From Amycolatopsis dendrobii (lineage in GTDB: Bacteria; Actinomycetota; Actinomycetes; Mycobacteriales; Pseudonocardiaceae), in contig NZ_JACGZW010000010.1 of assembly GCF_014145675.1 (NCBI RefSeq), forward strand, positions 62,001 through 126,000: a stretch of 64,000 bases of DNA, in the 5' to 3' direction. Below the pieces are notes generated by a model that did not search any database, was not told the DNA's origin, and saw nothing but the letters and a program-made list of their open reading frames with translations. Positions 30,314 through 40,455 of this stretch are shown here, piece by piece (the first letter of the stretch is position 1; each line of letters starts with the position of its first letter). Both the position numbers and the translations under genes were made by a program.

Positions 30314-30469
30314 TGGCTGGGAAAGTCCCTTCTCGCTTTGCTGGCCCCGCGACGCGCAAGCGGCCGCGGGGTGGCCGCCGGGTCGCGGGTATGTGACACG
30401 TCACAGAACACGCGTGCGCGGGGGCCCTGATGTGTGGTCGACTATGCCTGCACCGGTGGAGGTGGTCGA

Positions 30470-31177
30470 GTGCCAGACCGACAACCCGTCCCCCTCGGCG
30501 GCGCCGGCCAAGCCATGGCCGAGCTGCCGCCGGAGGCGATCCTGCGTGCCTGCCCGGGAGGGTCCGCATCCGGCGGCTCCGTCCCGTCCGGGCCGGGGAC
30601 CCGTCCAGGGGGAGCATCCCGTCCGCCCGGACAGCGTAGAGCCCGCGATCCGGTCGCCCCGGCGTGGGGGCGGCGCCGGGTCCTCCTGCTCAACGCCACT
30701 TTCGAGCCGCTGACCGCGGTGCCCATGCGGCGCGCGGTGGTGCTCGTCATGTGCGGCAAGGCGGAGGTCGTCCACGGCGATCCGGGCGGCGTCGAACTGC
30801 ACGCCGCGACGGTGTCGCTGCCCGTGCCCTCGGTGATCCGGCTCAGCACGTACGTGCGGGTGCCCTACCGGGCGCAGGTGCCGTTGACCAGGGCCGGGCT
30901 GATGCACCGCGACCGGCACCGCTGCGCGTACTGCGGCGGGCGCGCGGAAACCATCGACCACGTCGTCCCGCGCAGCAAGGGCGGTCCGCACAGCTGGACC
31001 AATTGCGTCGCCTGCTGCGCGAAGTGCAACCACCGCAAGGCCGACCGGCTCCTGTCGGAGATCGGCTGGAGGCTGCGCGTGGTGCCCCGCGCCCCGCACG
31101 GCCCGCACTGGCGGCTGCTGGCGCATTCCAAAGAGGCCGATCCGCTGTGGCGGCCGTATCTCGGGTCGGCGGCCTAG
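30470..31177 (+). CDS. HNH endonuclease family protein
   Basis: 235 aa from GTG 30470, chosen for GGAGGTG 7 bases upstream; GTG 30434 and ATG 30515 are alternatives. The first 65 residues are low-complexity. The conserved part begins RVLLLNATFEPL. The nuclease core has two zinc knuckles (CAYCGG and CAKCN) around the HNH motif TIDHVVPRSKGG to NHRKADRLL. The same gene (Rv2469c by synteny) is conserved next to glbO in mycobacteria. The substrate is unknown; a repair or housekeeping nuclease is more likely than a mobile one given the conserved position. Confidence 0.88.
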   Translation: MPDRQPVPLGGAGQAMAELPPEAILRACPGGSASGGSVPSGPGTRPGGASRPPGQRRARDPVAPAWGRRRVLLLNATFEPLTAVPMRRAVVLVMCGKAEVVHGDPGGVELHAATVSLPVPSVIRLSTYVRVPYRAQVPLTRAGLMHRDRHRCAYCGGRAETIDHVVPRSKGGPHSWTNCVACCAKCNHRKADRLLSEIGWRLRVVPRAPHGPHWRLLAHSKEADPLWRPYLGSAA

Positions 31178-31256: not shown

Positions 31257-31736
31257 TCAGGCGGCGAGGCTGTAGTCGGCCTGGCAGGTGACGCGCGTGC
31301 CCATCGTGACCCGGGTGCCGCGCGTGACGCGCGTGCCGCGGGTGACACGGGTGCCCATCGTGACGCGGGTTCCGGCGGTGACCCTGGTGCCGCGGGTGAC
31401 GCGCGTGCCCATCGTGACCCGCGTGCCCATCGTGACCCGCGTGCCGCAGGTGACGCGGGTGCCTGCCGTGACCCGGGTGCCGCGCGTGACGCGGGTGCCC
31501 ATCGTGACGCGGGTCCCGCGGGTAACGCGGGTTCCCCTGGTGACTCGAGTTCCCATGGTGACCCGGGTACCCATCGTCACGCGCGTGCCCGCGGTGACCC
31601 GGGTTCCGCGGGTGACCCGAGTGCCCCGCGTAACCCTGGTGCCGGACGTGACCCGCGTTCCGGGCACGAATCCGGTCTCGCTGGGTGACGAAATGGTCTC
31701 GGTGATCGCCTGAGCGGGGGTCTGGACGCTCTGCAT
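31257..31736 (-). CDS. GTRVT hexapeptide-repeat protein, function unknown
   Basis: 159 aa: a 24-residue leader (MQSVQTPAQAITETISSPSE, then TGFV), 21 tandem hexapeptides x-G-T-R-V-T, and the tail CQADYSLAA. Within the repeats G, T, R, V and T never vary; x is Arg, Met or Ala, with Pro, Ser and Cys once each. ATG 31736 follows AGGAGG by 7 bases. Synonymous codons differ between repeats (ACC/ACG; CGC, CGG, CGT and AGG), so the protein sequence is being kept constant. There is no signal peptide or membrane segment. A regular beta-solenoid with 7 turns of 18 residues is possible. It is inserted between the HNH and ctaJ genes of a conserved block. No family recognised. Confidence 0.85.
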   Translation of the reverse strand: MQSVQTPAQAITETISSPSETGFVPGTRVTSGTRVTRGTRVTRGTRVTAGTRVTMGTRVTMGTRVTRGTRVTRGTRVTMGTRVTRGTRVTAGTRVTCGTRVTMGTRVTMGTRVTRGTRVTAGTRVTMGTRVTRGTRVTRGTRVTMGTRVTCQADYSLAA

Positions 31737-32022
31737 GAGGTGTCCTCCTGGGACCGGTGCGTGACGGGCTGGGGCTGGGGAGGCGGGCGCAAGGCCCGTA
31801 CAGGTGAAAAAGCTACGAGGATTTCAAGGTTCGGACAAGCCGGTATCGCCCGGTACGGCCGCCTGTACGGCGAGTTGCCATCTTTCGGCCCGCAGCCCTT
31901 CGCCCCAACGTTCCAGCGGGGGCGGGCCAAGCGGCGGACGGCGCCTCAGCGGCGACGAACGGTCGCCCCCGGACGCCGGTGTCGCGCGGTGGCTCCGGGA
32001 GGCATCCGATACGCTCACCGGC

Positions 32023-32277
32023 GTGAACGTTGTCGAGACGATCCTGGTCTACGCGGTCATCCCCGGGGCCATTTACTTCGTGGTCGGCGCCGCGACCTTG
32101 CGGAAGAAGTTCTCGGGGACGCCGCGGTACCGGCCGGGGCAGCCGTGGGAATACCCCGCGATGTGGTGGACCGCCAACCCGGACGGCGTGGGAGCCGCCC
32201 ACGGCCCGGCGGTTGACGTGAATGCGGCGCCCGCGGGCGCTTCGACGGCCGCAGGAGGCGCTCGTGGCAAGTGGTGA
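32023..32277 (+). CDS. ctaJ: CtaJ-like small subunit of the aa3 cytochrome oxidase
   Basis: 84 aa. One N-terminal membrane helix (VETILVYAVIPGAIYFVVGA) is followed by a basic segment and RYRPGQPWEYPAMWWTANP, the pattern I associate with CtaJ, an actinobacterial accessory subunit in the bcc-aa3 supercomplex. GTG 32023 is the likely start, though its ribosome site is poor. It overlaps the DUF5130 gene by 14 bp. The identification is from memory of the family. Confidence 0.65.
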   Translation: MNVVETILVYAVIPGAIYFVVGAATLRKKFSGTPRYRPGQPWEYPAMWWTANPDGVGAAHGPAVDVNAAPAGASTAAGGARGKW

Positions 32278-32797: not shown

Positions 32798-32926
32798 CGT
32801 TCTGCCACCGCCGTTCGTGCGGGCCACCCTCATTGACCCTGATTCCGTCAGGGTTCCCCTCACGACCAGCCGCTGGTCCTCGAGGGGCCTTTCACGGCTC
32901 ACCCGCCGCCGCGAGGGTTGCGCCCC

Positions 32927-33005
32927 AACGCCGCATTGGGTGCATGCGACGCACCGAACGCCACATTGGGTGCGTGGGACGCACCCAATGCCACATTGGG
33001 GCGCT
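32927..33005. repeat. 30-bp tandem repeat, about 2.6 units
   Basis: Units at 32927, 32957 and 32987 share aacgccacattgggtgcgtg and then gacgcacc. Each full unit contains an inner palindrome (GGTGC...GCACC). It lies between the stops of DUF5130 and pepN. The remainder of the 491-bp gap (32747-33237) holds the two hairpins listed and no gene. Confidence 0.7.
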
Positions 33006-39651: not shown

Positions 39652-40455
39652 TCAGAAGTCGAAGCCTCCGCCGTCAAACCCGCCGCCGTCGAAGCCGCCT
39701 CCGTCGAAACCTCCGCCGAAGTCCTGGCTTCCGTCGAAACCGCCGCCGTCAAAGCCTCCGCCGTCGAAGCCGCCGTCCATGCCGCCGGCGTCCAGGGCGT
39801 CCGCCTGGCCCGCGTCGTAGCCGGATTCCCAGGCCGAGGCGCTGGCGATGCCGCTCATGCCGGAGAACATGGCGCTGAACAGGAACATCGAGCCGAGGCC
39901 CCACGCGCCCGCCACGAGCGCGGGCTTCCACCACGGTTCGCTGTACCAGCCCTGCGGCACCGGGCGTCCCGCGACGCGGCCGCCGGGGTAGTAGTACGGC
40001 GTGTCCTGGCCGGGGTCGGGCGAGGCGGCGTAGCGCTGGCCTTCGACGTCCACCTCGCGGTGTTCGGTGACCTTGCCCGCGCGTTCGCGCTCGGCCTCGT
40101 CCGGCAGTGCGGGGCCGGGGTCCATGCCCATCGCCGTGCGCGCGGCGCGGACGTAGTACAGGCCTTCGATGGCGGTTTCCTTCACCAGCCGGGCCTGTTC
40201 GACGGTCTTGGCCTGCTCCAGTTGCGAACCGGCGGCGTTGTAGCGCTCGCTCGCGTCGGCCATCGCCTGCTGGGAGGCGGTGTCGGTGCCGGTGATGTTG
40301 AGGACCTGGCCGCCGAGGCGCTCGACGAGGCGGCGCGCGTCGGCCTTCGCGTCGTCGAGCTGGCTCTGCCTGGTCGCGGCCTGCTTCCTGGCCAGGTACA
40401 ACCCGCCTCCGACGATGACGACGACCAGCACGATCAGGAGGATCGCGGTGCCCAT
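39652..40455 (-). CDS. membrane protein with Gly-Gly-Gly-Phe-Asp repeat tail
   Basis: 267 aa. An N-terminal membrane helix (AILLIVLVVVIVGGGLYLAR) is followed by a helical, probably coiled region (residues 25-110). A PYYYPGG/PWWKPALVAGAW segment has a second hydrophobic stretch near residues 175-200. The last 45 residues are repeats of GGFDGG/GGGFDG ending in GFDF. Many actinobacterial membrane proteins end in Gly-rich tails, but the function of this one is unknown. Confidence 0.7.
   Translation of the reverse strand: MGTAILLIVLVVVIVGGGLYLARKQAATRQSQLDDAKADARRLVERLGGQVLNITGTDTASQQAMADASERYNAAGSQLEQAKTVEQARLVKETAIEGLYYVRAARTAMGMDPGPALPDEAERERAGKVTEHREVDVEGQRYAASPDPGQDTPYYYPGGRVAGRPVPQGWYSEPWWKPALVAGAWGLGSMFLFSAMFSGMSGIASASAWESGYDAGQADALDAGGMDGGFDGGGFDGGGFDGSQDFGGGFDGGGFDGGGFDGGGFDF

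Follow-up and report, generated by a model that had tools for sequence, protein, structure and literature searches.

The question raised by this locus is what a bacterium may gain from a protein built largely of one pentapeptide repeated without change. The gene lies on the minus strand of a 64,000-nt stretch of the Amycolatopsis dendrobii genome (contig NZ_JACGZW010000010.1, positions 62,001 to 126,000; hereafter the window), at 31257..31736 including the stop codon. It starts with ATG and encodes 159 aa, comprising a leader (residues 1–25, 31662..31736), 21 GTRVT units joined by the single residues S R R A M M R R M R A C M M R A M R R M (31287..31661) and the tail CQADYSLAA (31260..31286). 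The array has a strict period of 6 (GTRVT plus one residue); periods of 9, 18, 36 and 54 were reported for it by Tandem Repeats Finder. The original prediction had described 21 consecutive x-G-T-R-V-T units, this same tail and an AGGAGG ribosome binding site; exactly 21 GTRVT were counted, the tail was read in the ORF translation, and AGGAGG was found at 31744..31749 (minus strand). The predicted leader exists, with 25 residues ahead of the first GTRVT (the 24 claimed plus the first variable residue).

The array gene stands alone between an HNH-nuclease-like gene (30434..31177, plus strand, start uncertain), which is syntenic and convergent to it, and the gene for the aa3 oxidase subunit CtaJ (32026..32277, plus strand, start approximate; NF050118 above cut-off), which is divergent from it. 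The HNH-like neighbour matched the NCBIfam models IscB and Cas9d, all under their curated cut-offs. Past ctaJ come a DUF5130 gene and pepN, between which a 30-bp tandem repeat of 2.6 copies (87% matches) occupies 32924..33000; a degenerate 15-bp tandem repeat, GTCGAAGCCGCCGCC, of ~8 copies lies at 39658..39775.

The window array spells its 21 units in 18 different 15-nt forms, and codon choice varies for each of Gly, Thr, Arg and Val (Arg codons: CGC 9, CGG 8, AGG 2, CGA 1 and CGT 1). Among units of the same array, pN/pS in the coding frame was 0.034 over 172 related arrays, and 0 to 0.14 by motif class; in the other frames of these arrays it was 5.4 and 30 (sense) and 4.9, 0.085 and 29 (antisense), the 0.085 being that of the frame reading VTRVP. 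Since near-identical copies differ at synonymous sites, the peptide rather than the DNA is conserved, as originally proposed, and the repeat codes for protein and is under strong purifying selection. In eighty named loci, exact GTRVT units numbered 1,305, spelled in 251 DNA forms, and 18 further units deviated at one residue. None of these deviants is an Arg-Lys or Val-Ile exchange, which speaks for each residue being recognised exactly. Palindromic DNA in the 80 loci was not in excess over shuffles (367 versus 366 ± 15), and an array of DNA palindromes or of protein-binding DNA sites was thereby ruled out.

The choice of strand had been argued from codon changes in the opposite frame. Codon pattern alone is weaker evidence than first claimed, because the antisense VTRVP frame is also fairly conserved, wobble positions being common to both strands, and at least one antisense frame is open through 164 of 171 arrays. 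The minus strand is decided instead by the promoter, the ribosome binding site and the fixed distance of the ATG from a conserved upstream element, so that the predicted orientation was borne out on other grounds. An antisense VTRVP protein was rejected, the constraint on that frame being weaker than on the sense frame (pN/pS 0.052 vs 0.024 in GTRVT arrays, 0.239 vs 0.068 in GVRIS arrays, 0.215 vs 0.136 in SVRIT arrays).

Absence of the repeat from related species had been named as a sign of a non-coding satellite; an orthologue match was found in 35 of 35 sampled genomes of the same genus. The 80 named array loci, taken from the best of 98 relatives, belong to Amycolatopsis, Prauserella, Saccharomonospora, Kibdelosporangium, Actinokineospora, Actinocrispum, Haloechinothrix, Qaidamihabitans and two oddly named records; an array is also carried by genome G302. 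The carrier genera include antibiotic producers, e.g. Amycolatopsis. Two loci under other names, L104 (Rhodococcus rhodnii NRRL B-16535, JOAA01000003.1) and L083 (Actinosynnema sp. ALI-1.44), hold Kibdelosporangium-type arrays, and these names look wrong because the same proteins occur in genomes placed in genus g49 (L058, L056). Of the 46 genera sampled in the family, 39 have arrays, 34 with an upstream element, through which most of the family was found, and five with a diverged or missing one. The conserved block was confirmed: 157 of 172 arrays are flanked by the HNH gene downstream and by ctaJ upstream, each on the strand opposite the array and in the same order, and in the remaining 15 one neighbour was missing in the stretch or at the search threshold, with no differing arrangement. 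No array was found near HNH in seven genera (g25, g26, g27, g50, g58, g59 and g64; 1–2 genomes each). The array locus is truly empty in g25, g26, g50, g58 and g59, since the ctaJ match there follows the HNH match by only 57–142 nt; in g27 and g64, ctaJ was not in the stretch examined.

Outside the family, inspection of 11 of the 22 genomes with matches revealed no GTRVT-like array (narrow pattern, at least 3 units). Within the family, nothing was found at the matched places in g45 and g47, and an unrelated repeat in g60; the true arrays of these genera lie elsewhere. A phage or plasmid origin was considered and set aside, tblastn having given no match in phage and plasmid collections, which is weak evidence since BLAST masks simple repeats.

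Comparison of upstream regions showed that they have in common TTGTC(C), ~17 nt, a TANNTT-like hexamer and then TTTCACCTGTACGGNCCTTGC, the hexamers being assigned by eye. In the window (minus strand) these are a probable -35 hexamer TTGTCC (31833..31838) 17 nt from a probable -10 hexamer TAGCTT (31810..31815), followed by the conserved 21-nt element TTTCACCTGTACGGGCCTTGC (31789..31809), which probably spans the transcription start. Allowing up to 2 mismatches, the element was found in 208 of 297 family genomes, representing 34 of 46 genera, once per genome save in G296, which has two; a reversed control pattern gave few scattered matches. Across the order (219 genomes) it was present in 28 of 34 genomes of the family and in none of the 185 genomes from other families. 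The ATG lies 71–75 nt past the first base of the element (73 ± 2 nt) in 165 of 172 arrays. A repeated-motif gene was downstream of the element at every one of the 50 + 23 element loci read, with 2 copies at one (L235, genus g57) and 3 at another (L228); together with L053, L166 and L174, these loci represent each of the 34 element genera at least once. An element-defined regulon was ruled out, the element being single in nearly all genomes that have it.

The element was diverged and an array present in g38 and g56 (3–4 mismatches) and in g55 (variant CACACGTACGG); in g62 it has 5 mismatches, with a short ORF holding 4 GVRIN. In g45 (locus L259, genome G081) an array of 15 GIRVT is present, the 21-nt element is missing and a promoter-like pair TTGTGCC...TAGCTT is kept. 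The element is therefore not indispensable, and the g45 locus offers a natural test of its role. The coding motif is far less well conserved than the promoter element. Between the promoter of the array and ctaJ (31820..31900), the alignment shows a further conserved stretch, GGTTGCAACTC...CGTACaGGCGGC. In the window this stretch contains CCGTACAGG, which is inverse to CCTGTACGG of the array element; the array gene and the divergent ctaJ may therefore have a common regulator. No Rfam family was found near the array gene.

Arrays detected behind the element at 231 loci were reduced to 172 distinct coding sequences, many of them from close relatives. This set omits the Prauserella-type loci with CACACGTACGG (L081, L089, L101, L102, L111, L113) as well as L135, L235 (2 copies), L259 and L264. 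Its classes are GTRVT (125), GVRIS (23), SVRIT (11), GVRVT (4), GIRVN (3), GTRIT (2), GVRIH (2), GVRVN (1) and GVRIE (1); GIRVT (g45) and GVRIN (g62) are two further classes outside these nine. Main-motif units numbered 2,908 and deviants 35, the deviant count being confined to pentamers within a loose pattern. The linked HNH gene gave a tree (159 rows, omitting L182, L269, L270 and L002) that stands in for the species tree. On it the 11 motifs are accounted for by 11 changes (14 once absence is treated as a twelfth state), where shuffles required 50; since many rows are close relatives, these counts do not represent independent events. GVRVT arose at least twice, one origin lying in g42, where the other member sampled carries GTRVT. 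Each genome keeps a uniform motif, and between lineages the motif is exchanged wholesale. The recently switched g42 GVRVT array (L276) has 12 copies in 5 DNA forms, as if re-founded from few units, and the g45 GIRVT array 7 forms among 15 copies, whereas GTRVT arrays average 0.84 forms per copy; within-array uniformity could come in part from recombinational homogenisation. Copying of the motif from one stretch of the neighbouring HNH protein was rejected, that stretch being alike in nearly all classes. In G296 each of the two elements is followed by a GVRIS array (L281, L296), the larger of them rich in deviants (GVRVS 4, SVRIS 2, GVRFS 2, GVRLS 1), perhaps through relaxation after duplication or as an effect of assembly.

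Much else in the protein is free to vary. Copy number ranges from 3 to 60 over the 172 arrays and spacer length from 1 to 35 residues; spacers are mostly 3–4 residues in SVRIT and GVRIS arrays, giving a motif every 8–9, and irregular in others. Mean net charge per residue is +0.16 in GTRVT arrays and -0.01 in SVRIT arrays. Since neither spacer length nor net charge is conserved, the function lies in neither charge nor a fixed period, and nucleic-acid binding through net positive charge was rejected on the near-neutrality of the SVRIT arrays. Residues flanking the units vary and form no constant cleavage site. The leader has no strongly hydrophobic stretch and diverges in sequence between genera; one candidate leader motif, picked by eye, occurs in 49 of 172 proteins. 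Arg spacers in GTRVT arrays came in 232 runs of one and 351 of two, with only 23 of three or more vs ~118 in shuffles, so GTRVT motifs are grouped by twos and threes, which may reflect selection or a 54-nt amplification unit. A same-genus array of 48 GTRVT (L010, genome G009) has a long higher-order repeat with the spacers A C R R N R R recurring, apparently a recent block expansion.

The tail of the window protein, which ends SLAA, resembles the end of the organism's own tmRNA tag AKANSQRDFALAA and is a putative ClpXP degron; this tag and 24 other sampled tags of the family all end LAA. Among the 172 array proteins, 102 end in AA, 73 of all in LAA, and 70 in something other than AA; an end of the form [DE][FYL]xLA[AG] occurs in 67. 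By class, LAA was found in 59 of 125 GTRVT, 9 of 11 SVRIT and 2 of 23 GVRIS proteins. The tails resemble the tmRNA tag in type and need not copy the host's own, as in g30, where the array tail is RQNDFSLAA and the tag ATSNDKRAFALAA. For the Streptomyces sigma factor SigmaAntA, a native Ala-Ala at the C-terminus has been proven to act as a ClpXP degron (PMC7142297), and by analogy the array protein would be degraded by ClpXP through its ssrA-like tail.

Family and structure searches bore out the original statement that no known family fits. No Pfam or NCBIfam model, RiPP models included, was matched over its cut-off, PADLOC (anti-phage defence) gave 0 families, and a literature search for the motif strings, the element and related ideas gave no relevant paper; the array protein matches no described family among those searched. 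As also predicted, no modifying enzyme adjoins the gene: neither such an enzyme nor a transporter, exporter or receptor was present among the window neighbours tested (HNH-like, CtaJ, DUF5130, PepN, an MscS-type channel and a globin). AlphaFold2 models scored a pLDDT of 57 (window protein, alignment of 24 rows) and 51 (an Actinokineospora orthologue, 6 rows), and Foldseek with the low-confidence model found no match at E ≤ 0.001. The window array had weak matches to left-handed beta-helix proteins (LpxD model, 2.9e-6; ferripyochelin-binding protein, 0.0018), and the top matches in those searches were other repetitive proteins (collagen-like SclB, 7.6e-8; a LIM-domain protein, 0.00095), as expected from low complexity. 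The beta-helix families stayed under cut-off (Hexapep_2, 12.7 bits vs 27; LpxD, 26.6 vs 207; NeuD, 22 vs 160.8), and their matches could fit period-6 arrays only. Regular 18-residue coils are not kept across orthologues, whose period is 6, mostly 8–9, or irregular by lineage. Given the low AlphaFold2 confidence, disorder, or order only upon binding, appears likelier than a common fold.

The explanation preferred here, to which a probability of roughly 0.4 is given, is a disordered, multivalent array of one motif that serves as scaffold or sponge for a single putative co-evolving partner. A largely disordered cytosolic protein would present a single short linear motif, [G/S]-[T/V/I]-R-[V/I]-[T/S/N/H/E], in 3–60 copies that probably serve as short extended strands, and would cluster or titrate the partner by avidity. 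Fit of the motif to a groove of the partner would keep all copies alike, unequal recombination would turn the array over so that a changed motif could take over, and rapid degradation by ClpXP would let the protein level follow the dedicated promoter. Recognition by one partner fits because identity over the five residues is exact while spacers, charge and leader are free; exact recognition, many copies and a turnover tail together are the grounds for preferring a scaffold or sponge. Against it, the strict conservation of each seemingly redundant copy exceeds what simple avidity needs, the 70 orthologue tails without AA do not fit, and within-array homogenisation could add to the uniformity. 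Purifying selection on each seemingly redundant copy is the least explained fact under every reading, and raises a testable question: why does each copy keep one sequence? Were a scaffold or receptor reading true, one partner with about eleven lineage-specific specificities would be predicted, identifiable by matching motif and partner across genomes. The fixed locus, the kept promoter element and the uniform motif exchanged between lineages form a natural experiment in motif-partner co-evolution.

Ranked after the scaffold or sponge, in this order, are a peptide-yielding polyprotein, a solenoid or fibre, and a RiPP precursor. The protein would, as a polyprotein, be a store of identical short peptides, shredded by ClpXP or another protease, that signal or regulate, and the lineage motifs would be pherotypes matched by a co-evolving receptor. 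This is unlikely, even though a near-invariant pentapeptide between variable spacers, free copy number, an indifferent leader, a motif uniform per genome with whole-array switches between related lineages, and a ClpXP-like tail all speak for it: the leader is not strongly hydrophobic, neither exporter nor receptor is among the neighbours tested, the units have no constant cleavage site around them, and many tails do not end in AA. The specific proposal of a proteolysis-tagged polyprotein that releases a pentapeptide signal particular to each lineage (GTRVT, SVRIT, GVRIS and others) for such a receptor is rather improbable. About equally doubtful is a structural repeat, in which units stack as a beta-solenoid or amyloid-like fibre with identical residues in ladders. 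Stacking would favour identical units, the motif is beta-branched and alternating, and the strict period of the window array and its beta-helix matches agree with it; the better matches to other repetitive proteins, the periods of the SVRIT and GVRIS arrays and the irregularity elsewhere, the low pLDDT and the empty Foldseek search do not, and a rapid-unfolding tag would be odd on a fibre. The originally suggested beta-solenoid of 18 residues per turn accordingly found no support as a common fold.

Multi-core RiPP precursors exist (PMC5934393), and the layout of leader, repeat and tail with lineage-specific cores would suit one whose enzyme is encoded elsewhere. This too had been put forward at the outset and found little support, in view of the neighbours tested, the unmatched RiPP models, the divergent leaders and the one candidate leader motif examined, which is not family-wide; its chance is put well below that of a polyprotein or a fibre. 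A non-coding satellite or selfish repeat devoid of protein function would explain the wide range of copy number, block expansion and the often open antisense frame. It was rejected on pN/pS, retains a negligible probability, and is further contradicted by palindromes at shuffle level, an ATG fixed relative to the element and in-frame spacers of many lengths.

Among known systems, CsoS2 and EPYC1 are disordered scaffolds with repeated short motifs. In CsoS2, such motifs bind partners multivalently, and the [IV]TG motifs touch a beta-strand of a shell protein (PMC10484944). The array protein resembles both in carrying many copies of a short motif in a chain here predicted to be disordered, at a copy number that varies between species. 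It differs in having no known sequence relation to them, in the switching of its one uniform motif from lineage to lineage, in the absence of any link seen to carboxysomes or Rubisco, and in a frequent ssrA-like C-terminal tail; by this analogy it would at most work like a CsoS2-type motif array, and is not a member of that group. The Streptomyces protein SigmaAntA likewise ends in an Ala-Ala encoded by its own gene, the pair of residues central to the ssrA degron (PMC7142297), but is a sigma factor, and the degron of the array protein is putative. With LpxD, NeuD, DapD and ferripyochelin-binding protein the window array shares a six-residue period and V-x-x-G-T-R; unlike these left-handed beta-helix proteins, it scores under the family cut-offs and has no catalytic parts, and other motif classes have other periods. 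Yeast alpha-factor and FMRFamide-type proteins are multi-copy peptide precursors. The array protein is like them in its identical short units between variable spacers and its species-specific units, and unlike them in that no secretory signal was seen and processing sites are not constant. If the array protein did yield a peptide signal, it would be a bacterial counterpart of the alpha-factor type of precursor, with pherotypes that switch by re-founding of the array.
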